This document shows positions 1 through 36,812 of a stretch of DNA of 64,000 nucleotides, piece by piece. Origin of the DNA: Morchella semilibera (Eukaryota; Ascomycota; Pezizomycetes; Pezizales; Morchellaceae); assembly GCA_009192285.1 (NCBI GenBank), contig CM018607.1, forward strand, positions 1,611,736 through 1,675,735. The letters run 5' to 3'. How positions within the stretch are numbered: position 1 is the stretch's first letter; every line of letters starts with the position of its first letter. The translations under genes were made by a program, and so were the position numbers. Below the pieces are notes generated by a model. That model saw only the letters and a program-made list of their open reading frames with translations, was not told the origin of the DNA and did not search any database.

Positions 1-3000
1 TTAACTAGCTACTAGCTCGAAGGGTATATCTGGCCCGGTTTATCCATATAGGCTATCATTTGCAGATTGAATTAAATGCCTCCTGAGAAAACTGGCACAA
101 TTCTTGTTTGGGGCGGTAGACATGATTCTCCAAGAGAACCACTGGAATAGAAACTACGGTTGCCCCTGCAGGCCGTACAAGCAAGGTCTAAGATATAGGG
201 ATTTTGGGCCAATAATGAGCAGTCCCAACAACCTCTGGCTCGTGTTAATTTGAGCTACTCGCGGCAGGCAACAAGTACCCGAAAATGCAGCTGCACTGCA
301 CCGGTGTATTTCCCTCTTTAATCCAATGAGAATTGCATCTCAAGACTTGCATATTCGGGTGCCGCGAGTAGATGGTTGAATCGTTGCCGTAGTTTTCTGC
401 TAGCTAGCTCGATCTGTTTAAACGGTCCGATTGACCAAAGTACCTCTCAGAGCTTATATCACTAGCGGGTTTCACCTATAACATTTTCTTCAGGGCGAAG
501 AAGGTTGAGATCTCCGTCTGCTTGGTTGTGGGCTGTGCTTGCTATATACAGGCAGCAAAGCAACGGTAGCAGTATACAAGTTAGATGGAAATGTGGAGAA
601 GGGTAACGTTAATGTATGGGAAGTAATTTCAAGTCCACTCCAGACAAGCCCAGTTTCAACTCAGGGGCCAATCTACCTAGATATGACAGAACTGCCGCAA
701 CCAAGAAGAAAAGGCTCCTAAGTAATGTTTTATTATTTTATCTACCATGGTTCGATCAGACAAGCAAGCAAGGCAGGATATGGATTACTGAGGAAAAGAA
801 TCTGGGCGTGACGGGAGGCGGCCATAGCGGCGTATGCATGCATGCTGTTACTCTGCCAACCACCCCTTGCTTCCCCTCCCCCACTAGGTCACAAAACTGA
901 CGTCTGATTCCCGACAGTGTGGATCACAGTTTCCATAAACGCGGGCGTGCATGAGGCGGACCACCGCCATGCTGTGATTACCTAGGTACTTTGCCTCTGT
1001 ATCCACTTTAGGGGGAGGGAAATAAATTAACACCGTATGTTAGTTCCAGTTGTTATTATAGTTGGCTGATGTTATAGCTAGATATGTGGAAGGATAGCCC
1101 CCACTGCAAATGGGCTGGTTAGGTTTGGATGTAAGTATTACATATCCGGAATTATTTCGTTGATATTTTCAATTTGACCTATTCTTTCACACTCAGGGAG
1201 GTAATCTTAAATAAGGTACTTATTCGGTGAATGAAACGAAACGAAACGAAACGAACTCATGGTTAGGTAATTCGCCCCTGTGAAATTGCTGCTGATGATA
1301 GTGCTGATGGCAGATGTTTCTTCTTCTCAGGTAGCGGCGGTGGTGGTAATTGGAGATAAGTCTTTACTTGCTTTTTTTTTTATTGCGCAAATGATGATTT
1401 TCGGGCCGTAATTACACACCTTGAGGCTGGATAGCTGGAGGCTTGTTTGGTCCCCGAGCTATCAGACTGGATACCACCTATCATCCACGATGTGTATGAT
1501 GTCTCCCCCACCATAAGCCAAGAAATAGAGCGCATATTTTGGACCATTGGTTGATCTATGGATGATTGGGTGATACAGAGCAGAGCCCTCGACCTGATCC
1601 ATGTTAGATCTCCCGTTAATTCTCACACCTCTACGGTTTCGATTCATGGCCACAATGGGGTAAAGTTTCGAGAGAAAGAGATAATTATACATACCGTTCT
1701 AGCTAGTTAGCTAGGTTAGTTAGCGAGGCATTTCGAATTTCACGTGTAAGCAGGTCAGTCCCCGAAAACCTTGCCAACTCGCAACCGATATTAAACGCGC
1801 TCCAAATGAGGAGAGGGGGGACATCGTGAATCCGAATTAGGATCTGAAGTGTTGGCAAGTACTTATGTTAGAACAACGCGTTGTAATGGGGGGAGGTAGA
1901 CTGATCATTTCTTACATGCCAACATGACGGCGTAATTTTCTATCTGCGCTTTTTTTTTTTTTCTTTCACAAGGCACGCGGACGTTCTGCCCTCCTGTACC
2001 CCATACATACATACCTACATGCTTCTCGTATCATAATTCCATCCACTATTCGCTTGGATCTTGAGGTTGGGCGGGTTTCGCATTCATCCGAACTATAACT
2101 GGGTATGTGGATTTAAACGCCGACAATATGCAATATAATATGAGGGGGGTTGGACTCGAGTCTCCTTTACCATGGTATTTTCTAGATAGATCTGCGGAGT
2201 TTAGACCATAGACTCTCACTCATATTTCTTTGTCATGCCTCTCTGGTCGTCGGAAAAACGGGCGGATATAATTCCGGTCCTTGGGGTTCGAGTTGCGCCT
2301 TCAGTGGGCTGGAGTAGGGTAAAACCTTCCATTAAACCTGATTATGCCCTAAAATGCCGGTGGCAACATGTAAGCAGCTGGAATATTCTGCGCATGTGAG
2401 TTTTTACGGTGTGAGGATGTATGTACTGTAGGTAGAGAGTGTCTCGCTCCCAATCGATCCCAACCTACGTACATGTATGTTTGGTCGTGGTTGCTATGCA
2501 CTGCGCCCTCGTGGGAAACAGCAGTGGTAATGGTCAAACGGACCGGTTCCTTAACCGGTGGTTACTACCGACCGAATAAAAACTCAAACCGAAGTAATAA
2601 TCGGGTTGGTTTGATCGACCAATTATCTGCTTCGGCGGGGCGGAGATGCGATACCGATTCATCAGTGGCCGCACCCGTACCACAGCCACAGTGAGGTATG
2701 CATAAATTTGATCTCATCTTGATCACTCACCCGTTTATTTGCTTCTACTAGCGTAGGAGGGTCGCATAGCAGGGCCCAATCAGTGGGTTATCGTCAGATC
2801 TTGTCTTTTCGGTCGGAGGGGCCCGACACTGACAGATACTTATATCACGATGTCGTATTAACTGATCCCAGGCAGGTGTGCAAGTCAATTTTTCAAGGCT
2901 GGTAAAGGTAAAAGCTTATCGCGGGAAATGGCCGCATTGCGTGCATCTCGCGCACTCCAATTAATTAATATTGTATGTAGCTTTGTTTTTCCGACTGTCT

Positions 3001-6000
3001 TTAATTTCTTTTGAAAACCAGGGGACATGATAGATACCTGATCTCGGTATACACCAGCATGCTTTGTCTTTCCCCCTCCACCAGATTTTAGAAGAAAGAT
3101 CCTCCACGTGCTCGCCTGAGCCGGAGAGTACTGGTATTTATGCATGTTGAGCAGAGAGGGAGACGTACTATGTCCCCGTATCACATCTGACCAGCTCCAG
3201 AGCGTAGGTATTATTTCTATATATACATAGAATGGGTTTGAGACAACTCCCAAGCGTACGCCAAGAGACTGTATGATCTAGAATTAAGAAGGCTATAAAA
3301 AAAAATAGGCACCAACGCTTGCACGTTAATTCTCTCTCTCCACGGTTCCCGGAACACTACTTGGCATTAACCCTAAATTCCTTTTGAGACGGTGTGGTGG
3401 ACCGGTGGAGTATGCAAGGAACGAAGTTTAAGATAGTGCCATAAGGGCCAGCTCAAGAAACATTACGTGCCGTAAAGGCTGCAGATTATGCCATTGCTTC
3501 AGTTATCATTGACCATGGGCTGACGGCTTTCTTGGTACCATACATGAAGAAGATCTTAATAAATCTGAGATATATTGTTAGTAGCTAACTACATGTACTC
3601 ACCTGCTTACATAGGCCGCTTGATAACGGTAAAACTCGCCGTACCTAAGAAGTATGTAGCACGGGTGTTATCATATCAAATTAACAGAGATAAATATCAG
3701 TAATCAATTCTATGCCCTATATACAGTTTTGCTAGGTTATAAGGGGAAGTATGTTCCTGGAAGCTTGGAAGAAGCTTCGCACTGCGGTGTACCGCACATA
3801 CATACATGTATGCATATAGGTCAGATGAAGCTCATCAGATACCACCCGCTGAGATTCCGTATTATGTTAGGTAATGAATTGAAACCTCGATTATTTGGTG
3901 CGGGAGAAAAACAAGTCAGTCTGCGGGGTTCGCTTGGCTTGCCTTGTTGGCGTTTTGTGATATCTAGAGATTTTAGTTTTTGAGAATACACCCATGCCAT
4001 GCACGCCGAACCAAAACTCGGAAACACTTGGCCGGGGTTAATAATAATCTAGCGTTTTACAACGGTTACCCCGCTAAGAAATACAACCATGAATAGCCGT
4101 GGTTATGCTTTCCCACTGCAATTAAAATACCAAATGCCATCTAGTTACCGGCGATATTCTCGGTGCTCGGATTTGGGGTTTTGGCTCAATGATGAGTCCC
4201 GGAAACCTTATCTTCCGGTCTGCGGATACGTAATTATTCAATGGTGAAATCTACATATATCCAATAACTTGGGCTACAAGCTAGGGTAGGTAGGTGTTCC
4301 AAATAGTAGTGTAATAATATAATACTGGCGTTATATGATCGGAATACTCAGGTAATAATAAAATAAAAACTGGGTGTCGTGTCACTGAAGATCTTGTTTA
4401 ACCCACGCTATGACTTGAGATACCACATATATTTCCAATCCCAGGGCATCAATAACCTTAATTCCCAATTCTTACTAGGTTCGATATGACTTAGATTACC
4501 CTCCTCGACCAGTCATATTAACGGAACTCCCCCCGAGACAGAACCTGAGGGATTCCCCATTTATGCTGTATTACCCCCGCTAGCCAGAATGTTTAGAAGT
4601 TTGCAATGTTCGTGTGAGGACTACAGTACCGGTACCCACAGGCAGCACGTAAGGTCTAAGATGTTTTGATTTCAACATTTGAAAGATAAGAGCGATTGAT
4701 CGTTCCAGTTTATTTAGTTGTAAACCTCTTTAAATATCTATCTTGATGTGATTCTGCTAGATTAATTGTGTGCACTGGTCCAAGCTTTCTTTTCGGCTGG
4801 ATCATTTGTTGTGAAGAAGCTCAGGGGCTCGATGATCATCGTGTGTCCGGTTTAGGTGTTGGAACTGGGACACTACCGGGGCGCAATTGACTGCGCCGAC
4901 AGAAAAAAATCGTTCGAGGATGGATGGGTGTAAGGGGAAGCGGGATGTCCGATGCTGTGACCAACAAGCCCACTGTACCGGGTCAAAACCCTCCCGGCCG
5001 GGACACGAGCGGTGGAAGTGGGGGTTGGAATCGGTCAGCCGCGAGCATCTTGACGCTATGTGTGGGGGCAGACGCACTTTGGCCATGTAATAACTTCTTC
5101 AGGAGATCAGGAGAAACGGATAATCTTATTTGTGTGTATAATCTGGTCAGCATCACGACAAAACGCAGTGGCCGTATACTTATGTTCCGTTTGCACCTTT
5201 CGTGTGTTGCATTGCTGGCTTGACTCGGGGATTGGGTCGAGGCCGAAAAGGTGTTGGTACTATTTTAATTATCTGGGGTAAAGAAGGCTAGGAAGTCCGG
5301 GGGTTCGTCTGTAGGTTCATTAAGCTATTAATACAGCCTGAATCGCAAGAGGGATCGGGTTTTTACGCATTAATCCTGTGTGTTTAATGAAAGGGTCTGT
5401 CGTGGTCTTGCACTTGCGCACCTTGAACTGTTGGTTATGGTACACGTGCGCCATATTCGGTTGCAGGTACATACAGATACATGTATTCACCCTGTATGTA
5501 GGCATCGGCTTGGAAATATTTATTGGGTTTTAGTTGATCGTTGATAGAACAATGTTCTATTTGATCTGATTGGAGACCCAGTGAAGGGGATCATGGTAAG
5601 TTGTAGCGTGCTGTTCATGAAGCCATGATCGATCGTTGATTGCGTAGTTGTAGATCATGGGTTTCTTGTGTTTTCTTATCCAATCTAGTAAGTAGCATTG
5701 TGGCAATGTTTTTATTTGCTTTTTACTACGACTGTGGTGGATATTTTGTGATCTCTCTTTTGGGGGAGCCACAGCTGTCCCCGCAGCGTCTCTGGAACTC
5801 TTGCAGAATATTCTGTTGATCCCCGCCCTCGAAGCCTCGGTGTCTCATGCATCTGATTTTCCCATTCGTCAGCGCGGTGGACATGAAGCCACTCCCGAGA
5901 CAGCCTGGTGTCGTGCTCAATATGCATGCGGATAGACAAGACGTTGGCAACGGCTTTTTTTTTTTTTGCCCAGTTAGCACACTCCCCCTCAAGGGTTTTA

Positions 6001-7495
6001 AAGGTGTGGAGAGTTGTGCAGCACAGCGGCAGGGACCAAGGGTATTCCATGGCCAGAAGGTTGTGCATCCCTACCGAGCGGTGTTTGGGGATAACTGGGG
6101 GGGGGGAGTTTTTCCTCAAAATTTCAAATCTTGGCGGTGTTGATAATTTTTATGTAGAATTGATTGGACAAGGGGATGATGATGCCAAGGACATCACGAG
6201 CAGCAGCAGGGAACAGCCGCCGCTTGTCTCATCTGTCTTACAACCCCAGTCCACACTTCACCAGCAGCGGCAGCAGGAGCAGTAGCAGCAGGCAATCAAT
6301 CAATCAAGCCTGAACTGTGTGTACCTGTGGACAAGCACTGCTCACTCTCTCACCCTCGATTTTACCCCCTGGTCACGCTAGAGTAAGTTGAAGAGCCTCG
6401 GCGATGTCGATCTAAGATGGAGGACGGTGCCGGCCATTGGAAAACGTATGTTACAACATCAGTTAAGTTCCTTTCGCCGCCGGCGATCATGCTGTTTCTT
6501 ACCGATTAAGCTGGCAAATTATTTTAGTTGCACCCCTCAAGGTATAATAATAATATGTTTGTAATTCTATAAGTATAGGTTATAAATATTAGGATCTAGG
6601 CATGTATCTTTTGTAGGTGTCCTTGTGTCGCCGCCGCCGGCGCATGCTTGTCGCTTTGTCCACGGCGGGTCAAAATAAATCCGGGGGGTAAAAAATTAGG
6701 ACCCACACACAGCACTTTGTGACTAAAGACGTACATGCTCCTAATATGTACTCGCTGTGTGTCCCACAGTGATCTCGTCCTTCGGCGAAACTCTGCACTC
6801 TCTTCACGCTTAGGACCCTACATAGTACCTAGCTTTCCGTCTAACTACTACCTCCTCCACCTTGCGCCTGACAGGCCTATTTTCTCTTCTCGTCTTTCCT
6901 TTCCCTGGTAACTTCTCATAGTAGTGTGGTGGTTCTCACTCCACACCCTCATCCTCATCCTCCTTCTACTCCTACTCCCACTTGTCTTTTACTCCCCCCC
7001 CCCCTCCCCCTCATCCTCTTCCCAAATTTACATATAGATCTATTGCCCGTCTCTTGCCGCTCTTTTGTTTCCACTTCTATCCCTATTTGATCGGGTTCTA
7101 TATTGATCCCCCCCCCATTCATCTTGTCTATACATTTCTATCAATCTCGTCATCTATAACTCAATCGCCACTGCACAAACAATCTCAAACGCCAATCAAA
7201 TTTCCCCTCGTCCATTTTAAAAACAAAAGCTGAGAAAGACGTGCAAGTCGAGCTATGGGCTGCTGATACCCTCACTTGAACCATCCCATATTCAAATCCT
7301 GCCTGTAATTTACTTCACTCCAGCCAATTACGTCCCCACCCTTTTAAAAGCCAAGGATTCTCTTATTTCTTGATTACGGTCGTCCTTGCCATTCGCCCCC
7401 ACAAGGAAATATATATAAAGACCTCCCACAAAACAGGAATCAGCCACAAATAACCTCCTCGATCTATTCCTTATTTCAATAACACATTTTTCAAA
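1..7495. other. Gene-poor stretch upstream of the transcription factor
   Basis: No coding region here could be tied to a protein family. Open frames are short and often overlap on both strands. The stretch holds a (GAAAC)n microsatellite at 1233-1256, several T-runs, and TACATGTA palindromes at 2470, 3590, 3803 and 5478. A CAG/AGC-rich patch lies around 6200-6290. From about 6830 to 7495 the + strand becomes strongly pyrimidine-rich (CT tracts), as expected for a long promoter and 5' leader of the gene starting at 7496. Confidence 0.6.
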
Positions 7496-10486
7496 ATGTC
7501 AACTGCAATGCTTTCTCAACCCACAGCTGTCTCCATCCCCCCGTCACTCGCCAGTCCTACCTCTCCCACCAAGAAGCGCCGCCGCAGAGCTCCAGCCACT
7601 GGTGCTGCAGAGGATTGCTTCACTTGCAGAGCAAACGGTATCAAATGTGACCGTCGTCGGCCCTACTGTGGCCCATGTCTCGAAGTTGGAAGTGATTGTA
7701 GAGGCTATAGGACCCAACTCACTTGGGGTGTTGGTGTTGCCAGCCGTGGGAAGCTTCGAGGATTACATTTGCCTATTGTGAATCTTGCTGTTGACAGCAA
7801 GAACACTCAAAAGGTTGTCAAAAAGAAGTCTGAGGATAAATCGACAGATGGAAACGGCGCAAAGCCGAAGAAGTCAAAGGCTTCCGAAAGCAATGCATAT
7901 GATTACGACAGCCAGCGTAATACTGGTGTGGGAAAACTAAGCATTATCACCAGTTACGATTTTGTCAATATGGAAGTTCCATCGAGTTCTAGCTCCAGAG
8001 CCAGTTCTGCTCTTTCTGCCAGCACTGCTGGGACAAGCCCAGCTCTATCCGCAATCTCTCAGTCTAGCATCCCGTCTCAGCGATTAAGCCAAGCACGGAA
8101 ATCGCCTAACCCTCCCTCGTACTCCCCGTATTCTTCAAATCATCAGCAGCAGTATCACTCGCACATTTCACCTCAACAGCAGCAGTACCAGGCACCAATT
8201 CAACACTACCACAAGTCACCATACTCGCATGTTTCACTTCCTCCACACCAAACAACCAGCTCACTACTCTTGTCCCCAATGTCTGAATATGAGCCTAGTT
8301 TCCCCTCTTCACAGCACTACCCCATGTCTTCCGCGCCAGCCACTGCTCCTTTGTATGACATGGTGACTGGTGTTTCAAGCTCTACTTACCACCCCACAAG
8401 TTCAATGACCGTCACTTCATCTAGCGTGTCTTATGCCCCTATGACCGCGCCAATCATGCAAACATCCTCCCGGATGATGGGTGGTGATCATATACATCAA
8501 AATCACAACCAACACCCCCACCACAACGGATCGTGGAATGGCGTTAGCGGAGTGGGCAATCTTCATCAACAACATGTACAAGCGGGAACAGGTAACCTGT
8601 CAGACTTGTTGTACGATGACGATATGCTTGGTACGTTCTAAAACGTTTTTGTGTCTTGTGATTTTCTTTTTTTACTGTTTTATTAAACTCAAGCGAAGAG
8701 TACACTTCCCCCTCCATTTTTACATACCCCTCCCCCCCATCTCTACTAAATCCCCCTAATTGTTGCTAACAAGGTGGTTTTTTGTCCTTTAGTGGCTCGT
8801 GGTCCCGAATCCTCTTACTCCTCTACTTCATTTCAAAACCCGAATTCCCCAACCCCAACAAACCAATCTCTTCCAACTTCTATTTCTCCTATGTCGATAC
8901 AATTTCCTCCCCCCGAGCTAGCAAATATTTCCCCCAAATTCCGTTTCCTTATCGAATATTATGACAAAATAGTCTGCGCCTCAATAGTTGTCTTCGACGG
9001 CCCTGGTAACCCATATAGACAACAAATCATCCCAATGGCATTCAAGAACGAAGCTCTCATGGAGGCGGTTTATGCACTTTCCACCAGCCATCTAGACTCA
9101 AAAAAGAAGGGTATACTCTCGCTCGAAAGGAAATCTTCTGCAGATTCTCCAAAAAGCAATTCTTCCGTGCACTCCCATTCACCTTCGTCCCCGGTGTCTC
9201 CGGGGCATCAACCCTTCCCTGATTCTCATCGGGGGTTACATTTACTATCTACAGTTGCTCCTGTGGTAAAGGAGAAGTCCTCAACTGCACTCAGCCATAA
9301 GAATAATTCCATCCATCTTCTCAATGCGCAACTTACTATTCCTGAGCTAGCAAAGTCAGACTCGGCGATGGCCACGCTTTTGATATTATTGTTTTATCAC
9401 ATTAGTGAAACAGGCATCGGACAGTTCAAAACACATCTTGCGGGAGTCAAAAAGTTGATGGGAATGAGATGTGTTGGAAAGGAGACTGGTATATGGGGCT
9501 GGATGGAGACTGTGTTTACGTGGCTTGACAACATGAGTGCTTCAATCAATAACAGAGAGGCACAATTAAGAGGCGGATACCTTGATATGATTTTTTCATC
9601 GAGCGATGACTGGGACCTGGAGAGTTTAACGGGATGTGATAGGGAACTGTTTATGCGACTGGCTGGATTAGGAAGAATCAACGTGTTGAGTCAGATGCCA
9701 ACAACTGCTAGTGGTAGCCTTGAGAGAAATATGGAAGAGGATGATGGAGTCACAGAGCCTTTTAGAGATGAGAATGATGGGAGAGATGAGTTCTGGTTGG
9801 CCTGGAACGCTATAAAGAGAGATCTTCGGCGATGGAGACCCACAGCTACCTATGCAGCCACACCCTCTCGCCATTTACCGGTTGGAACCAATACCCCAGG
9901 ACCTTTGAACGTACCAATTCCTTCTCCTACTTCATCTACTTACTCAATATCCCCTTCACCACCACTATCGACTGGAAGCCCTAAACGGAAGTCTTCTAAG
10001 GCCCATGAAGCTGTCGAGATCAATCATTGGCTGCACGCGTCCAATGTCTACCGCTACGCAGCCATTCTGTATGTCGACCGACTTGCCTATCCACACCTAC
10101 CTTCGTCGCATTCCATATTTCAGAACACGGTCAGAGAAGTTTTGGACCATGTCAATTGCATCCCTAACTCTGGGCTTAGTCACAGACTCCTTTGGCCACT
10201 TTTTGTCACTGGGACAGAGTGCGTTGTGGATGCTCATAGAAATATGATCCGAGAACGGTGTATAGGGATGCAACGTGAATGTGGTTTCTTCAACAAAGTT
10301 TCTAGTCTTGACGTGTTGGAGAAAATCTGGCGCGAAGATATCATTGAGGAGGACCAGGGTCATATGGGCGACGGAATGTTTGCTGGAGCCAAGAGAATGG
10401 GGAATATCAGCCCGAGTGTTGGAGGGAGAGGTTTGAGGTGGAGGAAGGTCACAGGTCACGAGGACGTCGAGTATTTGATGGTATAA
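7496..10486 (+). CDS. Zn2Cys6 transcription factor with fungal-specific regulatory domain
   Basis: Nuclear DNA-binding regulator; target genes unknown. Two exons, 7496-8630 and 8793-10486, joined by a 162-nt intron (donor GTACGT, acceptor TTTAG), give 942 residues in frame. The ATG at 7496 is preceded by TCAAA, a good fungal start context. A Zn2Cys6 cluster lies at residues 41-68 (Cys 41, 44, 51, 58, 61, 68; it begins CFTCRANGIKC), preceded by a basic stretch KKRRRR. Residues about 115-370 are low-complexity, rich in Ser, Pro, His and Gln. From about residue 428 the sequence resembles the Fungal_trans_2 (DUF3468) family, beginning FRFLIEYYDKIVC. An ATG at 8774 opens the second frame but lies inside the intron, so it is not the start. 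The leader is very pyrimidine-rich, so long 5' UTR control is possible. Family call firm; orthologue not identified. Confidence 0.92.
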
Positions 10487-12357: not shown

Positions 12358-14349
12358 ATGTCTGCACCGTCGCTCTCATCAACCACCAATCAAAGGCGTA
12401 AGCCTCTGTTGAGTAGGCTTGCTGAAGTGGTCAGGACAATGTGGGATCTGGGGTTCACCTCATTTGGAGGACCTCCTGTCCACTTCCAAATTGTAAGTCT
12501 TTTTCGAGTGCTGCTGACGGGGAATTAAAACGAAAGGCGGGGCGGTTAACACCTCAATACAGTACCACAAACGATTTGTCGACGGTTACAAGTGGATCGA
12601 TGAACAAACGGTATGATTCCCTCAGGGGCACCCAATCTCGCTAACCTCAGAACCGAGTGATATTTGGATTCGGACGCTAACCGCTGCATCAATCGAAACA
12701 GTACCAGGAATTGTTTGCCATTTGTCAGGCCCTTCCGGGTCCTGCCAGTACCAAGTTCGGGTTCTGCATAACTCTAATTCATTCTGGGTTCATACCCGCG
12801 CTTTTAGCGTTTTTGTTGTTCAGGTTTGTACTAACCTTTATCCTTCCCTATCAGGTGGTTGATTGATTGATTACTTACTTGGATGTTTACATAACCATAG
12901 TTTACCGGGAGTATTCGGAATGTTTGCTCTCTCGCTCGGCGTGTCGAAAATGGATGAAATCCTCCCAAGACCAGTTTATGCACTACTTTGTGGCTTGAAT
13001 TCAGCCACCGTAGGGATTATCGCTCTAGCTGCTGTCCAATTGAGCCAACGTGCTATTACTGATAAGGTCTCCCGAGCACTTTTGTTCTTAGCTGCTGCAG
13101 CAGGAATGCTGTATAACGCACTATGGTATTTCCCACTCTTGATGTCCATCGCTGGTATTTTCACAATGTCGTATGATGGCGGCTTTGGACCTAAAGCTCT
13201 AGTTTATACGAAGAACCTTTTCAAGAGGATACGCCATAGACAAAGTAACAGCAACAGACCTGTTGAGGAGGGGCTTAGTGACGGGGCATGGGCTTCCTCG
13301 GCCATCAAGGAACCAACTGCTGCCCACCGAAGAGCCAGTGCTGCACCATCCGTGAATGAGGAGCTAGTATCGCAGGTCCCCGAAAGTCAAGCCAATGAGG
13401 TGAACGAAGTGGTCGAGGAAGCGGCTGCTACCACCGCAGCCAACCGGAACAAGGTTTTCTCAATGCCGCTTGCTATTTCGATAGTGGTCGGATTCTTCAT
13501 CTCATTTATCGTGATTTTGGTCTTGAGAGCGGAATTAAAAAGTCGGCCGATTGGATTGTCTCTGTTTGCGAACTTGTATCTGGCTGGAACAGTAAGTAAC
13601 TCCGTGTCCTCATGCATAGCTCAATCGCAAATTAATTTTTCTAGATTATCTTCGGTGGAGGACCTGTCGTTATTCCATTGCTTAGACAGTGAGTAAAATT
13701 GTGCTTGTAAAATTTCTTTGAGATAATCCTAATCGGCGAACCACAGGTACATCGTTGACGAAGGATGGGTGTCCGCTCGTGATTTCCTTCTCGGTTTGGC
13801 AATTATTCAGGCATTCCCAGGGCCAAACTTCAATTGTAAGTCAAGTAGCCCCATATCCTAGTTCCCTACCGCTAATATTGAGGCTAACTTAAAATAGTTG
13901 CCGTCTACCTCGGTTCCCTTACAGCACTTAACTCGGGCTCCTTGCCATCAGCTATCGGGGCTCTCCTTGCCTTCATTGCTATATTCTCCCCAGGGATGTT
14001 GCTCGTCTCAGCAACCCTTACACTCTGGAACGAACTCCGTAGCCGGCCTTGGGTCGCATCTATTCTCAGAGGCCTGAATGCTGCTGCGGTAGGGTTGATC
14101 TATACCGCTGTCTATAGGCTCTGGGAGATGGGTTATGTTGACGAGAACCATTCAAATGGATCGTCATTGGGGAGAGACCCTTGGTGGGTCGTTATCACGG
14201 CAACCTCCTTTGTGGGAACCGCTTGGTTCGGGTTTCCTGCACCATTTTCGATTGTCCTTGGGGCTGCAATGGGACTTATTTGGTTTGTAGTCGTGAATGC
14301 GGGCCAGAGTGGAGCTGAGTTGTTGGGAACTGCGATGATGGAGCTTTGA
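12358..14349 (+). CDS. Chromate transporter, two-domain CHR family
   Basis: Membrane anion transporter of the CHR/ChrA superfamily, which effluxes chromate in bacteria; fungal members may move chromate or sulfate across a membrane. Seven exons: 12358-12492, 12563-12610, 12702-12823, 12901-13591, 13645-13688, 13747-13835, 13898-14349. They sum to 1581 nt, 526 residues. Two homologous halves are visible. The first has FTSFGGPPVHFQI and ALPGPASTKFGFC; the second has IIFGGGPVVIPLL and AFPGPNFNFAVYLG. Both are typical CHR signatures with many hydrophobic helices, and a hydrophilic linker of about 80 residues separates the halves. The start is the ATG at 12358; the frame is open slightly upstream but has no earlier ATG. 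The exon 3-4 junction gives LLFSLPG, where many relatives have a Trp before SLPG, so that junction is the least certain. Confidence 0.93.
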
Positions 14350-19913: not shown

Positions 19914-22900
19914 TTAAATAACATTGGCAGAAGGGATGGCTAGTCCTGCTGGAACATCCTCCGTCTTGTTCGCTTTTGTCTCAGTTGGGAGGGCATAGCC
20001 TGTACGAGCACCCGCGGCAGTAAGACCCTTGCGAATGGCAAGGACACTGTCGACAATGACAGCGTCAATGCCTTGGTCTACCTGAACTTTTACGTTTTCC
20101 GGATCGTTGTTCAAGACCCCATAAGTAATACAGACTAACCCAGATTCCCTTACAACTCTGTGGATAAAGCGTGATATATTAGTAAGGGCTGCACCGGGAC
20201 AATGAAGAAGGAGGACAAACTTGATCAAACGTGGACAAAGAACAAATGGCTCGGCTACGGATACAATCCCCAGCAAATTCCAATTGCTTGCAAATCTAAT
20301 TGCCTCCTGAACACTAGAGGCTCTTATATCCGCCGTGGGATGAGAGCCAGCATCAGTAAGGAATAAGATGGGGATAGATGGCTTCAGAGCTGTTAGTAAT
20401 TACAAAAGCTATATCATGAGATTTCAGGTGAAATACCTGCTTGAATGAGAGCAACAAGCATATATCTGGATTGAAACTTGAGAAAATAATGTCCCGTCCC
20501 TTGCCATTATCATAAACAACCTTGAGAACTATCGGGAATGTCAGTGAATTAATCCACCAGGATAAGAGTCACAGAAACTCACTTGTGTCAACCCAGTAGT
20601 TCATCTCAATTGCAAAGCTGTCCATCTCATGTTCCTCAACTTCTTGAAGCATAGGGTACTCTATATTACCACTCAGATTAGTAATCGTATATAATATTTA
20701 TTGTAAGGCTCAGACAACGTACTAAGTTCAATATTGAACCCAACGCTTTGCGGTAATTTCTTAAAAGTCTCCTCGAGAGTTGTAAATGGTGACTGAATAC
20801 TGCTGCCTCTAACATTGGCCTTGAAACCATTCTTGATAAACCCCCTCGTGTGCTTCATGCGGCCATGATGAGACTCAACATGGTGGTCATCATGCTCGTG
20901 CAAGGACATGGAGCGAGCCCTACGGAGACCCTGAGCCGACACTTTTTGGCTTTCGGGAACAGTGTCAGGGGTATTTCCGCTGTCCCAGGGGCGGGTAGGA
21001 GAGCCTGTTTTTCGGGGACGTGGGTTCTGATGTTCACTGATTGACATGAACTAAACTCGGAGTCTTAGTAAGCCTCTTAACATACGAGGGATCGTTTGAA
21101 ATACCTGGTCTAGTGTCATTGTGTGTACAGGAGCATCAATTCCTGTTTCTGCAACAAGAAAGTCATGATAAATGACGGGTACGTGGTCCTTCGTGAGTTG
21201 CACATCTGAAAAACAACAATTAGTATATTAAAACGATCACATTAATTCTTGCAGGTCATACCAAACTGTGAATCATGTTAGCATAGCTTCAGCAGGAAAA
21301 TGCAGGAGAAACCCACCTCTACATACTCAGCCCCCAGATTGGCAGCAGCAATAAAAGACTATGGAATTGATTAGTTTAGTTACATCCTGCTCAACATTTG
21401 ACTGCGTGTTAAACATACCAGCAGAGTGTTCTCGCCTAGCTGAAGCGACTTTCTGGTAGTCGTGTTTTTTCCAAGACCTTCACAAGCATTAATTGAATGT
21501 ATCTTTAATGAAAACACTAAAGTATTACTAACCTCGATGTCCAATAACTCTAGTCGGTGCTAAGCTTTTCCAATAAGTCTGCTTTTTGGTGACTTCCATA
21601 TTCGGGTGCTCGAACGGAGTAACAACCCGGAATTCAAAGTTGACACAACCTATGATCTCTAGACTGTTCACGGCAAGAATCGGAACTTGGATATCGCCTT
21701 GCAAAGCGACCCTACTCCTCCCCAAACCTGGCTTGATTGAGCTTAGGAGAGCAACGGCACGGCCTATGATTTTATCGCTGGAGCCTGCATATGTGGGTAC
21801 GAGATCAAACATAAGCTTAACCTTACTAGCGTCTTTAGTCTCAAAGCAGATTGGGTCGTCGGAAACAGCATTGGAGTGAACAGGTAGGTCAATGATCGAT
21901 GGCTCGCCGGTCGCATTTTGAGCCGAGACAACGAGCGAAAGTGCAGTATCCAACTGAGTTGAATGCGCCTCAGACAGTGGGATTTTGTCTAACTTTACTG
22001 CAGACATATTCTTTCGAGTATCCGTGCTTCCTAGAGTAACCAAAATCATGGTTTCTCCTTTCTTCAGGTAACGATGTCCAAAGCTCTTGACTGGCTGCGC
22101 AAGTGGTGCTACAGTTTTCCCTGGAGACGCGCTAAGTGGTACCATCTTTTCCAGGCTTGATGGTGGGGAGGGTGTGATAGAATCGGCTGGTGCTTCTGGT
22201 ACAGAAACATGTTTTGCCAATATCCTAGTTATATCAAGGTGACCTCTAAGGGCTGCGTGTTCTGCTGCTGTCCACCCAGATAAATCGATCTTATCCAACT
22301 CACATCCCGCTTCCAGCAAAGTCTCGACAATTTGAGTTTTCCCTTCTACTGCTGAAACAAACAACGGCGTCCAGCCATAGGTTTTTTCGGCAAGCTCAAA
22401 ATCTGCCTGCTGAGTATCATTCCCCTCTAACAAAGCTTTAGCACACCCAACATGGCCCAGTCTTGCAGCATGATGCAACGCAGTCTCTCCATTATCATCC
22501 TGGTAATTGATATCAACGCCAGCTTCGACCAAAAGTTTGACGATAATAGTGGCATTGGCCTTCGTCGCTAAGGCCAAGACTGCAGATGACTTTGAAACGG
22601 TTTTTCTGGCTGACACGATTTTATCGTCGCTACCCAGGCCGCCATCCCAACTTTCGGCTTGTAGCAAAAGTTTCGTGGTCTTAGGATGTGCTCCCATGAC
22701 GGCTAAATGCAATGGCGCAAGCCCATCCGAGTCCTGCCAATTTGGTGAATCGATCCCGTCTGAAACATCAAATTGTCCCCACTGCCGCATGTACTTGATG
22801 ACGACTTGGCAGATTACCACAAACCCATATTGTGCAGCGTAATGAAGTGCCAGTCGACCATAAGAGTCCCGAGCCGCCAGAGCAGGCCGTTGATGGGGAC

Positions 22901-24267
22901 GAAGCTTGCTTAGCAGGTGCTCCAATGTTTTTACAGAACTATCATGGGCAGATAGCTTCAAGGTTCCGTCAACCTCGGTTGTATTCAAAGATGAAGGAGG
23001 CAACGAAATTGGAGATTCTGCTGGGGTAATAAAGAGCGGGAGGTTTGAAGGTGTCTGGAGTAGGGTTGACTCTGGCCTTGGGGTATCTAGCAAGGACAAG
23101 TCTGTTGATGACTCAATAAGAGATTTATTTCTCCCAATAGAGATAACCAAACGATGAATAATGTTCCTTTCGTTGATATCATCATCTTCATGCAATGTTT
23201 CAATGCGCCCCAAGAGCAAGTCGATGCATGCCAAAGCCTTATTGGTGATTGAACGTTGTAGAAGTATGAGCAACAGCTTCTGTGTAACGTACTCGCCGAT
23301 AAGGGCATCCGATAGGCTGGTCGAATTGTCTTCACGAATACAAAGATCGACCTTATCTGCTATTCCATCCGGGGCTCCTGGAGCCGTACCCGATGCAAAG
23401 CGGCGTAATGTAGGCCGGGTAGAAGAATCAACATCGTTCTCAACGCCATCCGTCCCGCCAACTTTGGAAAGCCAAGTATTGACAGTTTGCATGGCCGCAA
23501 TAACCTCTGTTGCCGAAGCAAACGGCTTGAGGTTAACCTTTGAATCGAGGTACCGTTTTTGGGCACAGACATTCGTCTTTTTATCCACCCTATTAGAATA
23601 TTAATGAGATTCTTTCACAGCGGGATATCGTGGTCATACTTTTTCAAAATCTTGATAAACCCCCTTCTATTAACCTCTGTATATTAAGAGGTGTAAGTAC
23701 GCAGCTTTTATAGGAGGGCGTAACTTTATTATAAGACTTACCACCATACCACTGTAGCTTCCGAAGCCCACTCCTCAACTCAAGGAGAGCGCCCAGAAGC
23801 TCAGACATCTCATCGCTGTCCATACCAAAGCCGTCTGGAGCTGACTCCCCAGAATCTTCACTCTTCACACTACCGTTCTCGGAATTAGCCCAATCGAAGT
23901 GTTCGCCATAACGCCCTTGCAATAATTTGAGTCGTCGCTGAGACTCAGCAAAACGCTTGTTGAAGAAAGAATCGACAGTCTCGAGATTACGGTCAAGCTC
24001 AAAAAAGAATGCTAGTTTTGAGTTGTCAGTGACCGAATAGCTCCCGGAATACGAAAATGAGCAAGCTTACGAGTTAAATCGGTTTCTCCAGGGACACGCG
24101 GATCAGAAGTGACAGATTTAATATGTTTTTTGAGACCCTTGTAATCGATGTAACTTGAAGACCACTCTGGAACCTGGTTCCTGGGTAAACTAATGAATGC
24201 CATAAAAGTAAGCGGACAGTTGATCCTGGCAGTTCGGGGGGATGACGTACGATTTACCAAACTTCAT
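19914..24267 (-). CDS. GDE1: SPX-ankyrin-GDPD glycerophosphodiester phosphodiesterase
   Basis: Hydrolyses glycerophosphocholine-type diesters to glycerol-3-phosphate and alcohol; the SPX domain is a sensor of phosphate status (inositol pyrophosphates). Fourteen exons, in - strand order: 24267-24251, 24189-24071, 24011-23742, 23676-23640, 23589-21533, 21477-21419, 21358-21317, 21265-21262, 21205-21105, 21050-20723, 20660-20583, 20528-20437, 20381-20221, 20157-19914. All phases agree and sum to 3609 nt, 1202 residues, close to yeast Gde1 (1223). The SPX domain starts MKFGKSLPRNQVPEWSSSYI, with FFFELDRNLETVDSFF behind it. Ankyrin repeats cover about 285-610. A linker domain follows, then GDPD from GHRG (831-834), with the metal-ligand motif EFDVQLTKD (867-875) and YHD (881-883). 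The exon encoding F868 and the first base of D869 is only 4 nt. Intron 13 (63 nt) is free of stops and in frame, but splicing restores LIKVVRESG. Confidence 0.95.
21262..21265 (-). other. GDE1: Four-nucleotide micro-exon of GDE1
   Basis: On the - strand the sequence is ...GATTCACAG, then TTTG, then GTATGACC..., with a branch-like GCTAAC 16 bases before the exon. The preceding exon ends GTA GAG and the next starts ATGTGCAACTC. Only inclusion of TTTG gives V-E-F-D-V-Q-L, the conserved GDPD metal-binding stretch, and keeps the reading frame. The flanking introns are 51 and 56 nt. Confidence 0.9.
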
Positions 24268-28447: not shown

Positions 28448-29460
28448 CTAGGCAGCCGCAGAACCATTGACTGGTCTCGACATTAGATCCTCGTCAAGTC
28501 GTTGCAGAAGATACTCGATCTCGATCTCCTTTGTTTGGGGGATGACCTAGTAGAAGGGGGATGTAATTAGCACCATTGGCCTCCTGGGGTTGGAAGGGGA
28601 AGAAAAGCTTACATAGTCCTTGTACATTGCCACAACGGCCTCTACATTAATCTTTGGTGCCGCGCCCCCCTTGATCCCCTCCTTCTCCGCCATTGGATCC
28701 GTCCCGTATGTCCTCGCCTTCAGCTCCAACCTCTTGAGCACCTGCTTCTCCACCGCCGTGTTCGTGATTGCTCTCTCCAGCCCCGCCACATCCCTCTCCC
28801 TAATCATCCTCGAGTACCTCTCCGGGTCCTCCCTAAACTTTGCCTCCGCGACAAACTTTCCAAAGTGGATCCTCCTGCTCAGGGCCTGCAGGCACGCCAC
28901 ATCGCTCACGGCCGTGCTCCCATAGTTCTCCCTGGTCTCGCCGTGGTCGTCTGCGGCGGTGGTGGAGCAGGCGGCCGGCAGGATGTGGTTGATGTAGGAC
29001 TCCTTGAGCTTCTGGTTGCCGTTGACGGTGTTTGGGTGCAGCAGCACGGGCCACTTGAGCGGCGCGAGGATGGGCTCGGGGAGGTCGGAGGGGAAGAAGG
29101 CGTACTCGTCGGGCGCCTGGTAGCGGCGCACCTGGGCGTGGATGCGCTCCTGCTGGTGCAGGATCCAGTCGAGGAAGCTGCCGGTGTGGTTGGGGATGTG
29201 GATGGCGCCGGGGGTGTAGATTGTGGGGTTGAGGGGGAATTGTACGCGCTCGATCAGGTGGAAGATTATTGTGTCTTCGAGACGGCTGTTGCGCTGGCGG
29301 GTGGGGGTTAGCAATTGGGTTATATGTGATAGTAGGGCGGGGGGGGGTAGGGGGCGGGGCGGGAAGAGGGTAGGGGGCGGGGGGTGAACATTAGCTGGTA
29401 GCGGATGTTGTTGAGGTCGAGGGCGGAGGAGGCGTCGAGGAGGTCAATAGAGCCGTCCAT
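28448..29460 (-). CDS. ARO7: Chorismate mutase (AroQ, fungal allosteric type)
   Basis: Converts chorismate to prephenate at the branch toward phenylalanine and tyrosine. Three exons: 29460-29390, 29285-28613 and 28546-28448, total 843 nt, 280 residues (yeast Aro7 has 256). Splicing of intron 1 (donor GTTCAC, acceptor CAACAG) restores NNIRYQLIRLEDTIIFHLIE. The longest open frame begins inside intron 1 and must not be taken as the start. Further family blocks are SRRIHFGKFVAEAKF and VIPQTKEIEIEYLLQRL, where Thr253 and Glu257 match yeast Thr242 and Glu246 of the active site. Yeast Aro7 is activated by Trp and inhibited by Tyr; the same is likely here. It is divergent from DBR1, with about 920 bp between the two starts. 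An insertion of Ala/Thr/Asp residues before HGETRENYGS makes it longer than yeast. Confidence 0.96.
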
Positions 29461-30378
29461 GGTTCGTGTGGATTTGGGATTTGGAGGGGGAGGGAAGGGT
29501 TTTTTTGTGAAGGATGGGTAGAGTAGATAGAGTAGTAGTAAACAGAGTAGAGCAGAGCAGAGTAGCTGTGTGTGGGGTTGGTTCTTTTCTACATGTTTTT
29601 CTTTGTCTCACCCGGACGCTGAAGTGTCTTTGACCCCTGCATGCGGTCGGTCGATTAGTCAGGCCCGACTCTACTCTATGGAATGCTACCTACATGTAAG
29701 TACTCGGAACAGAGGGTGAAGGTACATGTATCCACCTGATGGATAAATACATATCCTACAATAGCTACTTACTTACATGTAAAGTAAAGAGGTCTGTGGT
29801 AGATACTCAAAAGCCTTACTCACTGATTATTCTCGGCTGCATACCACGAGAGGAGGCATCGGTGCCGGTGTGTGGATTGGTGGTAATGTAAGAAGACATC
29901 ATGAATAGTAAACACCATTGCACTCTACTCAACACAGTCTGGAATGGGTGCATACATTCATTCACTCCGGTACAGACATTCACTCCTTGCAGACAGAGTA
30001 CTACCTCTGCTATACCGAATGCCAATAAAGCCACAAAGCTGCAGGTTTTGGTGATCCGAATTTCAATTTCACATAGAAAATGGTGGGATTTTATCTGCTG
30101 TACCGAATAATCTGCTGTATCGTAGACAGAACCTCAAGATCTGTTAGAAGAGTTACTTACATGTCAAAATTAACTAATCGTCATTATTCATAAAATCACC
30201 CCCACCGTTACACCAGGGCCAGGGTTCTGCAGATCCAAGCATTGAGGCTCTTCTTTTCTTATCGTTGTCTGCCTGCATTATCACATCTTGGACCTCACCC
30301 TCCTCCTCCCAGACAGACAGACAATTGAAACACCACCATCACCACTACTACTACTACCAAAGACACGCAGTAATTGCA
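29461..30378. other. Divergent intergenic region between ARO7 and DBR1
   Basis: Shared upstream region of two divergent genes. Between 29691 and 29781 lies an imperfect inverted repeat whose ends are both TACATGTAAGTA (read from each end), with a third TACATGTA at 29723. No gene seen. Confidence 0.6.
29691..29781. repeat. Inverted repeat ending in TACATGTA
   Basis: The left arm is TACATGTAAGTA at 29691-29702; the right arm is its reverse complement at 29770-29781. The total span of 91 bp is similar to the 96-bp hairpin at 39417-39512, which also begins and ends with TACATGTA. Confidence 0.55.
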
Positions 30379-32355
30379 ATGGCCAGCCCCCTCCGCATTG
30401 CTGTCGAGGGCTGCGTATGTTCTTCCCCCCTCTCTTACCACCCCCCCCTCTCCCATACTACCCATACTAACACCCTCCCAGGGCCACGGAACCCTCAACG
30501 CCATCTACGACTCCATAGCCAAAGTCTGCACCGCCAACAAATGGCCCGGCGTCGACCTCCTCATCATCGGCGGCGACTTCCAAGCCGTCCGCAACATGCA
30601 AGACCTCAACATCATGTCCTGCCCCCAAAAATACCGGGCCCTCGGCGACTTCCACGAGTACTACTCGGGCGCCAAGCGCGCCCCCTACCTGACGCTCTTT
30701 GTCGGCGGCAACCACGAGGCCAGCAGCCACCTCTGGGAGCTCTACTACGGCGGGTGGGCAGCACCAAACATCTACTACCTGGGCGCGTCCTCGATCATCA
30801 ACTTCCGGGGACTGAGGATCGGTGGCTTGAGCGGGATATATAACGCGGCGCACTACGGCATGCCGCACTACGAGAGACTGCCCTATAGGGACAAGGATGT
30901 GAAGAGCGCGTACCATGTCAGGGCGTACGATGTGTTTAAGCTGCACCAGGCGCGCGAGCCCGTGGACGTGATGGTCTCGCACGACTGGCCGCAGGGTATC
31001 GAGCTGTGTGGGGATGTGGATGGGTTGCTGCGGAAGAAGCCGTTCTTCCGCGCGGATATTGATAGGGGTGAGCTGGGGTCGCCGCCGGCCAGGAGCCTCC
31101 TCTATAAGCTTAGGCCGCGCTACTGGTTCAGTGCGCACCTGCACATCAAGTTTGCGGCGATCGTGGACCATGAGGCTGGCGATGGCGGGGGTGTGAGGCG
31201 GGTCCAGCAGACGGAGGGCGTGCAGAGGATGGAGGTTAAGAACCCGGAGGAGCTGGATATAGCCTTGGATGAGGGTGAGGGGCCGGCGCCGGCGCCGGCG
31301 GAGAACCCGGAGGAGCTGGAATTGGACCTGGATGAGGAGGATGGTGGCGTGTCGGTCCCGCCGAAGAACTCGGACGAGATCGAGCTCGACCTTGACGAGG
31401 AGCCCGCTAACCTTCCGCCCGCTGCGGCTGCAGCGGTCTCTAACGCCGACGAGATCGACCTTGACCTTGATGACGAGGGGCCCGCTAACCCCCCCCCGCC
31501 TGCTGCGACCGCTGCAGTCTCTAGCGCCGACGAGATCAACCTTGACCTTGATGACGAGGGGCCCACTAACCCTCCACCTGCTGCGGCCACTGCAGTCTCC
31601 AATGCTGACGAGATCGACCTTGACCTCGACGACGATGCGCCCGCGCCCACAGCCGTCAAGACCGAAGTCCCCCTATCACCACCACCACCACCCCCGAGGC
31701 CAAAGCCACAGCACCCGCTCGTCAGAACCGCTACACCCGCTTCCTCGCCCTCGACAAGTGCCTCCCGCGCCGCGAGTTCCTCCAGATCCTCTCCATCACT
31801 CCTACCGCCCCCGCGCTCACCACCAGCACGCCCACCGGCCTCTCCTACGACCCCGAATGGCTCGCAATCACGCGCGCGCTCAACCCCTACCTCCACAACC
31901 CCGCGTCGCACCCCTACACCGCGTTCCAGGACCCCGCGAAGCAGGCGGCCATCGCAGAGGACATTGCGCGGCAGCGCGCATGGGTCGACGAGAACATTGT
32001 GCAGAAGGGCAGGCTGGGCGTGCCGGACAACTTTGTGAGGGTTGCGCCGAAGCACGAGGAGGTGCCGCAGGCGCAGTGGGGCAGGGGTCCGCAAGAGTGG
32101 ATGAGTCCGCAGACGGGCGCGTTCTGTGAGATGGTGGGGATTGCGGATGGGACCGTGGAGGAGCCGGCGGAGAAGGAGAGGAGGTTGAAGGCGGCGGGGG
32201 GGAGGGGCGGCGGTGGGGGTAGTGGTGGGTGGAGGGGGAATAGAGGTGGTGGTGGTGGGGGTGGGAATAGAGGTGGGAGAGGGGGAGAGGGGGGAGAGGG
32301 GGCAGAGGGAGGGGATAGAGGGATGTGTAGAAATCCTGACCCCCTCATCACTTGA
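30379..32355 (+). CDS. DBR1: Intron lariat debranching enzyme Dbr1
   Basis: Cuts the 2'-5' branch of excised intron lariats in the nucleus. Exon 1 is 30379-30414; a 67-nt intron follows; the main exon starts at 30482. Metallophosphoesterase residues are all present: VEGCGHG (Cys12, His14), GGDFQAVRN (Asp44), VGGNHEAS (Asn89, His90), SHDWP (His179) and FSAHLHIKF (His231, His233). Residues 266-403 hold six acidic repeats of the type N-x-[DE]-E-[IL]-x-LDLD, an expansion of an NPDEI-type motif. The C-terminal Dbr1 domain (FLALDKCLPRREFLQIL, then MSPQTGAFCEMVGI) is in another frame and ends in a Gly/Arg-rich tail. Either a 44-nt intron 31655-31698 (GTCAAG...CGAG) joins them to 622 residues, or one C is missing from a run near 31669-31673. 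The intron is shorter than any other here. Confidence 0.93.
31241..31654 (+). repeat. Six acidic tandem repeats within DBR1
   Basis: Six degenerate units of about 20-27 codons encode cores NPEELDIAL, NPEELELDLDEE, NSDEIELDLDEE, NADEIDLDLDDE, SADEINLDLDDE and NADEIDLDLDDD, separated by Pro/Ala linkers. The last three units are nearly identical at the DNA level, suggesting recent slippage or duplication. Confidence 0.85.
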
Positions 32356-35537: not shown

Positions 35538-36812
35538 CTACCCCGCCACCTGGCTAGGATACATCCTATCCTCACTCCCGGGCGGCGGCGCAACCACCAA
35601 CCCCTCGAACCCATCCCCCTGCGCCCTGTCGCCCTCCTCCTCCTCCTGCGCCTCCTGCGCCTCCTGCTGGTGCTGCTGGTGCTGCTGCTGACCCGCCGGC
35701 CCGCCCGCCGTCGCTGCCGCCTGGGAGCGGTCCAGGTTCCCCAGTGGCCTTGTGCGGCCCCACTGGACGCGCAGGGGGCACCCGGAAATGACGGCCTTGC
35801 CCTGGCACGAGACGGCGGCGGCTTCGGCGCCCGAGCGCGTCTGGAAGTTTACGAAGGCGCAGCGGGAGCGGTGGACGCATACTATGGACTTGAGGGGGCC
35901 GAAGGCGGTGAAGAAGGTGCGGATGTGGTGTTCTGCGAGGTCGTCCTCTACTCTGTTTTGTTTGTTAGATACCAACCAACGGGACCAATGCAAATGAGGG
36001 GGCGACTTACCCAGTGAGGAACAGCGACGTGATGGTCTGATCGTCCGGCGGGATGACATCCTGCGGCCCCGGCGGCAACTGCCCCACGCCCGGGAACCTG
36101 GCGCCCCTCCCTCTACCGCCGCCTCCGCCGCCGCCGCCCCGTCCCCTCCCAGCGCCTCTACCCCTCTCTCCAGACCCCGACCCTCCCTATCCCTAGTTCT
36201 CACGGGCCCTACACCACCACTCCCGGAGCCCTCGCCCGGCCCAGAGCTTTCACCGCCGCCACCGCCGCCACCGCCACGCTTGCGCCGGTAGTATGGCTCG
36301 CTCCCCGCCAGCTTCTTGAGCAGGTCGCGGGCAGCCGCGTCCGTCTTGTCGTACTCCTCCGGCACCTGTCCGTCGACGAGGGAGCCCTCGTGGTTCTGCG
36401 CATAGTACTCCTTGTTGATGCCGGAGCTGGGGCCCTGCGCGACGAGCTTGAGTGCCGCGTCGCGCACGGCGATGGGCAGGCCGAAGGAGAGGTCGAGCAT
36501 GCAGCACTGGCAGCAGTTCTTGAGGCGCGCACAGGTCAAGCAGATCTAACGTCGTCAGGTCAGTCAAGCTAGCTGAGAAGGGGAGGGGGGGGGACAGACA
36601 TTTGTCTTTTTGAAGCGCGAGGTGCGGTCGGCGGCCCAGCGGAAGACGGTGAAGGGGCGCGTGCAGATCTTGCATTCGAGGCCGCGGTCCTCCTTGATCA
36701 TCTGGATGAAGGGGTTGTCGGTGGCGGAGAGGCAGTCGTTGCAGACTGCCGGGAAGTCGGTCACCTCTGCCCCGGAGCGGTTTATGTCGGATTTGGGGCC
36801 GGCGGGAGGCAT
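35538..36812 (-). CDS. SLT11: Pre-mRNA splicing factor Slt11/Ecm2 (RBM22 family)
   Basis: Spliceosome component that helps shape the U2/U6 active site. Exon 1 is 36812-36600, exon 2 is 36545-36011, and the last exon is 35952-35538; introns of 54 and 58 nt. The N-terminal zinc-binding region has Cys24, 27, 47, 50, 73, 76, 82, 83, 85 and 86 (CNDC, CKIC, CLTC, CCQCC). An RRM follows, with RNP2 LFLTGV and RNP1 RCAFVNF, then a Gln/Glu-rich tail. The CCCH finger found after PYYRR in human RBM22 is absent and replaced by a Gly run and VGPVRTRD. Between that and RGARFPGVGQLPPGPQD the frame changes by one base, near 36175-36185 in a G-rich stretch. One missing G, or a 47-nt intron with donor GTAGGG, would reconcile it; the total phase requires one of these. 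Confidence 0.94.

Follow-up and report, generated by a model that had tools for sequence, protein, structure and literature searches.

How is the coding sequence of a conserved fungal enzyme joined across 111 bases that interrupt its metal-binding site, and do those bases hold an exon of four nucleotides? The question arises in a 64,000-nucleotide window of the Morchella semilibera genome (the whole stretch of DNA analyzed here, with positions counted from its first letter), where a GDE1-type gene runs on the minus strand from start to stop codon at 19914..24267. Removal of 13 GT-AG introns from 24267 down to 19914 leaves 14 exons and a reading frame of 1202 residues. This spliced model exceeds the Pfam cut-offs for SPX, ankyrin, GDE1-type C2 (C2_GDE1) and GDPD, all within one predicted protein, and the GDPD match (187.8 bits) is a single stretch over residues 832-1160 that takes in positions 1-242 of the 244 in the profile. 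Judged by its predicted product, the gene is probably GDE1, the glycerophosphodiesterase of fungal phosphate metabolism. Scans of prokaryote genome contigs and viral contigs, which are non-fungal collections, gave no relatives, as expected for a fungal gene. In the model, intron 12 (20382-20436, minus strand) has to end at the more distant of two candidate acceptors, an AAG; a CAG that comes 8 nt before it would lead to a stop.

Several other genes share the window. An open frame at 35544-36545 (minus strand) matches the STL11 N-terminal and RRM families, and probably encodes a splicing-related protein near GDE1, while zinc-cluster and Fungal_trans_2 domains in two adjoining open frames at 7454-10480 (plus strand) probably mark a transcription factor with an intron between the frames. 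Further matches are to the chorismate mutase type II family (28553-29443, minus strand), the calcineurin-like phosphoesterase family (30374-32032, plus strand) and the chromate transporter family (12863-13690, plus strand). The host assembly comprises 56.8 Mb in 23 contigs, and a 701-base query from the GDE1 junction region matched only itself there, with no second copy. Three contig pairs (C9/C10, C12/C13 and C21/C22) carry many kinase and helicase matches at nearly equal place and score, suggestive of two haplotypes or of contig duplication; the junction region is found once. A 5.8S rRNA-like match elsewhere in the genome (G000:C19:2699587-2699758; 39.5 bits, under the family cut-off of 42) was the only one reported, with 39 of 1209 candidates scored.

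Between exons 7 and 9, the 111 bases very probably consist of two ordinary short introns around a constitutively included 4-nt exon, TTTG. Exon 7 (42 nt, 21317..21358, like all parts of the gene on the minus strand) ends GTA GAG, encoding V866 and E867, the latter a predicted metal ligand. Intron 7 (51 nt, 21266..21316) reads GTGGGT...CACAG, with a branch-point-like CTAAC at 12 nt from its CAG acceptor, and is followed by micro-exon 8 (21262..21265), which would supply the Phe868 codon and one base, the first, of the Asp869 codon. Intron 8 (56 nt, 21206..21261) reads GTATGA...TTCAG, with a branch-point-like CTAAT 14 nt from its acceptor CAG; its donor hexamer is also used by intron 4. Exon 9 (101 nt, 21105..21205) begins AT GTG CAA, completing D869 before V870 and Q871, and carries H882. 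The locus presents a predicted internal exon of a few nucleotides between GT-AG introns with complete signals, the intron 7 donor being weak by matrix and strong by U1 energy. With TTTG included, the predicted spliced junction is GTAGAGTTTGATGTGCAA, and the spliced sequence that would distinguish the micro-exon from the 107-nt intron discussed below is GAGTTTGATGTG. The micro-exon holds up at the level of sequence, and it is most likely constitutive. A preliminary description had placed TTTG at 21262-21265 with flanking introns of 51 nt and 56 nt, and had given it, within an EFDVQ motif, the codon of Phe868 and the base that starts Asp869; these coordinates and lengths are correct, as is the E867-F868-D869 numbering in the spliced model.

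The active site of fission-yeast Gde1 includes H810, R811, E845, D847, H860, E968 and K970, with metal contacts from E845, D847 and E968 (PMC8749416). In the predicted protein, H832, R833, E867, D869 and H882 are spaced as H810, R811, E845, D847 and H860 are in S. pombe (35, 2 and 15 residues), and E1010 and K1012, in NIELK, correspond to E968 and K970, although the distance from E867 to E1010 is 143 residues against 123, or 20 longer. All seven catalytic residues are found in the spliced model when set against the published S. pombe numbering, and this intact complement is what sets the predicted GDE1 apart from Pho81. The Pfam GDPD match and the E867/D869 spacing shared with fission-yeast Gde1 also bear out the earlier placement of the micro-exon within the GDPD active site. 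F868 is absent from the listed ligands of the fission-yeast enzyme, and the TTTG exon matters because it keeps the frame and starts the D869 codon. Between the E and the D, four aligned PDB relatives have L in three cases and F in one, so the site tolerates change and an EVDVQ enzyme would probably work too. The GDPD domain taken by itself scores 192.6 bits with F at residue 868 and 190.9 with V (F +1.7).

A Pho81-like paralogue (L008, G000:C20:2953500-2959500) offers a marker for the length of this region. Its single open frame of 765 aa (2465-4759, minus strand) carries ankyrin, C2-like and degenerate GDPD-like parts, and we would call it Pho81-like from these parts together with the account in PMC7587432. 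The paralogue has R, L and Y where GDE1 has E867, F868 and D869, and is without an intron at the place of the micro-exon. Its alignment with GDE1 has a gap of about 20 residues upstream, but the block over GDE1 residues 857-906 is ungapped (EYVRLYIQLTRDCVPVLY against EYVEFDVQLTKDHVPVIY), and hence one residue belongs between the positions of E867 and D869. EFD and EVD both fit this marker.

Apart from introns 7 and 8, the gene's 11 introns measure 50-65 nt (mean 58.0, SD 4.7), a length that introns 7 and 8 match; both have CAG acceptors, and the scan that found branch-point-like elements in them found such elements in 9 of the 11 others. By a small matrix built from the 11 other introns of this gene only, the intron 7 donor GTGGGT scores 2.97 bits, under all 11 other donors (5.9-8.8). 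The same donor forms the strongest U1 duplex of 15 donor sites, at -9.7 kcal/mol with 6 Watson-Crick and 2 G-U pairs of 9, in a calculation that used the U1 5' end and a duplex energy not tied to splice register. Ten nucleotides upstream, within codons E864-Y865-V866, lies a decoy donor-like GTATGT (21321..21326) that the preliminary description did not consider. At 8.8 bits it has the best hexamer score of the gene, above that of the intron 7 donor, and could cause mis-splicing; none of the enumerated paths from this donor at 21326 kept both the frame and E-x-D-x-Q.

Signals of this kind could in principle fall together by chance, and two counts bear on how often they do. With signal definitions set post hoc, we shuffled the central 76 of the 111 inserted nucleotides 100,000 times; in 34 shuffles an in-phase unit reappeared whose donor equalled or bettered GTATGA, a count rising to 126 at the looser GTGGGT threshold and to 440 when any GT was accepted. 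A scan of 488,000 strand-bases, made up of the window plus 18 other 10-kb stretches, with signal definitions chosen after seeing the sequence, found 265 single intron-like units, and only four double units with a spacer of 1-12 nt, at three places. Two of these four are the GDE1 site itself, once via the decoy donor, and of the three places it is the only one with a 4-nt spacer. The others have spacers of 8 nt (L012, 5796-5909, plus strand) and 7 nt (L018, 523-660, plus strand), with a frame open across the unit of at most 82 and 65 aa, respectively. Either could be chance, transposon sequence or a micro-exon; if they are real, then the chance rate is lower still. The TTTG two-intron unit thus exceeds chance expectation, with a low rate of chance recurrence. 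As for its origin, we considered and rejected intron duplication, since 69.6% of 2000 shuffles matched or exceeded the similarity between introns 7 and 8.

To weigh other ways of joining exon 7 to exon 9, we listed all GT-AG excisions 40 nt or longer, alone or with a second excision, nested ones included. Of the 1520 one- or two-step paths, 74 of them single introns, exactly one yields EFDVQ, namely the pair 21316-21266 and 21261-21206. The full exon 9, the frame and E-x-D-x-Q are otherwise kept by one path, a single 107-nt intron (21206..21312) with the donor GTTTCT, and three more products are this intron plus a second excision that shortens exon 9. The preliminary description had not considered the donor at 21312, which would dispense with a micro-exon and give a full-length enzyme reading Y-V-E-V-D-V-Q across the predicted junction GTAGAGGTGGATGTGCAA. 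We consider this unlikely, but it has real merits: no other single intron among the 74 keeps the frame and E-x-D-x-Q, the GDPD match of its product still reaches 190.9 bits, its donor scores 2.73 bits on the small matrix, nearly the 2.97 of GTGGGT, and its U1 energy of -3.8 kcal/mol is stronger than that of the donors of introns 1, 10 and 13. Its 4 Watson-Crick pairs of 9 in register are the fewest of the 15 sites, although with 2 G-U pairs its total of 6 exceeds that of introns 1 and 4 (5 of 9). Donor scores therefore hardly separate the micro-exon from the 107-nt intron, and the case rests on intron length and internal signals. The single intron is long beside the 50-65 nt of the gene's 11 other introns, and it would make a coincidence of the branch-point-like element, acceptor and donor that lie inside it (34 of 100,000 shuffles, or 440 with any GT). 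It is mainly this length, together with complete internal splice signals left otherwise unexplained, that tells against it; V868 also scores 1.7 bits below F in the GDPD profile. Wider donor statistics had little to add. An enrichment test on 239,400 bases yielded nothing usable, and our own gene finder, run on 250,001 bases, returned only 35 introns, without a clear consensus. In the enrichment test GTTTCT was seen 3 times against 11.3 expected, a deficit to which we give no weight because GTGGGT (8 against 7.3) and GTTTGT (10 against 10.3) showed no excess either. Far more improbable is a stwintron, in which the 111 bases would be nested introns, for instance a [D1,2] arrangement with an internal intron at 21316-21266 and an external donor G|TTTGG. 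Removal of intron 7 does join a G to TTTGG and so creates a possible new donor (GTTTGG, 2.84 bits), but the product of this example is out of frame, and no enumerated two-step path, nested ones included, gives EFDVQ except the two adjacent introns. Nested introns with productive sequential removal, as a stwintron would have, were not found among the paths, and stwintrons are a different thing from a micro-exon flanked by two introns (PMC6616335).

A further possibility accepts the two-intron structure and adds regulation to it. The preliminary description proposed that inclusion of TTTG could act as an on/off switch for the enzyme. In this special case of the micro-exon reading, skipping under some condition, for example a change in phosphate, would shut the enzyme down, and a protein of SPX, ankyrin and C2 parts would be left. 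Leaving out TTTG shifts the frame, as had been claimed, and the SPX and ankyrin parts are untouched; in the spliced model C2 is spared as well. The computed product, read across the predicted junction GTAGAGATGTGCAA, has 896 aa, with a foreign 29-residue tail after E867 and a stop at codon 897, a TGA at 21116..21118 in exon 9. Keeping intron 7 or intron 8 likewise gives an early stop. In the skipped message, five exon junctions lie downstream of the stop, and four of these come after exon 10, which is 328 nt long. RNAs with a stop upstream of exon junctions are usually substrates of nonsense-mediated decay, so the skipped message would more likely be degraded than give rise to a stable second, truncated protein. 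Precedent offers the switch some encouragement, in that GDE1 is tied to phosphate supply (PMC8749416) and inclusion of the 20-nt micro-exon of Trichoderma Xlr2 is reported to depend on glucose (PMC11121469). On the other side, inositol-pyrophosphate toxicity in fission yeast was relieved alike by deletion of Gde1, by truncation of its catalytic domain and by the E845A-D847A change (PMC8749416), so that this toxicity assay revealed no activity of its own for Gde1 without the catalytic site. Our sequence analysis found nothing pointing to regulation, and any frameshifting exon would look alike. The switch is thus unsupported, and we regard it as very improbable. Slightly less probable again is that phosphate-regulated skipping escapes decay, so that GDE1 has a second product, an SPX-ankyrin-C2 protein that lacks catalytic activity and resembles the regulator Pho81; if this were true, one gene would serve for both an enzyme and a signaling protein.

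Short fungal introns are recognized across the intron itself, by intron definition, and a TTTG exon would therefore need no exon-defining machinery. For the constitutive 4-nt exon that we favor, introns 7 and 8 would each be recognized as a unit across themselves. They would probably be taken out in turn, since four bases leave no room for U1 at the second donor next to the factors bound at the first acceptor. With TTTG included, the frame would be restored through E867-F868-D869 and the GDPD active site would be complete, while skipping, retention of either intron or use of the decoy donor would produce premature stops or frameshifts, most likely feeding nonsense-mediated decay.

The value of this case is moderate, and lies chiefly in annotation and splicing mechanics. 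TTTG falls at the metal site of an enzyme that is conserved, and an annotation pipeline overlooking this exon would declare the gene defective, insert one spurious intron or shorten the catalytic domain. The exon also provides a clean natural case of how the splicing machinery handles two splice sites four bases apart. Most likely, the GDE1 exon adds a new case to the fungal micro-exons already known. A non-exhaustive literature search on fungal micro-exons and smallest exons had no GDE1 title among the matches listed, and a text search for EFDVQL gave a single match, unrelated by its title and the start of its abstract. Exons of 2-5 bp are cited for Arabidopsis, Drosophila and humans (PMC12940212), and four nucleotides is very short even beside the published fungal examples of 1 nt (PMC12940212), 6 bp (PMC1184071) and 20 nt (PMC11121469). 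Fission-yeast Gde1 is a close counterpart in protein, an SPX-ankyrin-glycerophosphodiesterase with equal catalytic spacing around E-x-D, and the main text describing it mentions no micro-exon and does not use the word "intron" (PMC8749416). P450 genes of Phanerochaete chrysosporium combine very short exons with frequent small introns (45-55 bp), as here, though their shortest reported exon is 6 bp rather than 4 (PMC1184071). The 20-nt switch-like micro-exon of Trichoderma virens Xlr2 resembles that of GDE1 in being fungal, not divisible by three and within a functional domain (PMC11121469). Also close in kind is the 1-nt exon of the Fusarium P450 CYP621A, which is likewise ultra-short, restores phase inside a conserved motif, was missed by most gene models, and was similarly argued for with an intronless relative as length marker (PMC12940212). 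These last two cases differ from ours in their evidence: condition-dependent inclusion is reported for Xlr2 (PMC11121469), and the CYP621A exon is documented in 20 orthologues and 18 RNA reads (PMC12940212), whereas the 4-nt exon of GDE1 is read from the DNA of one gene, with a paralogue that is intronless at the site.
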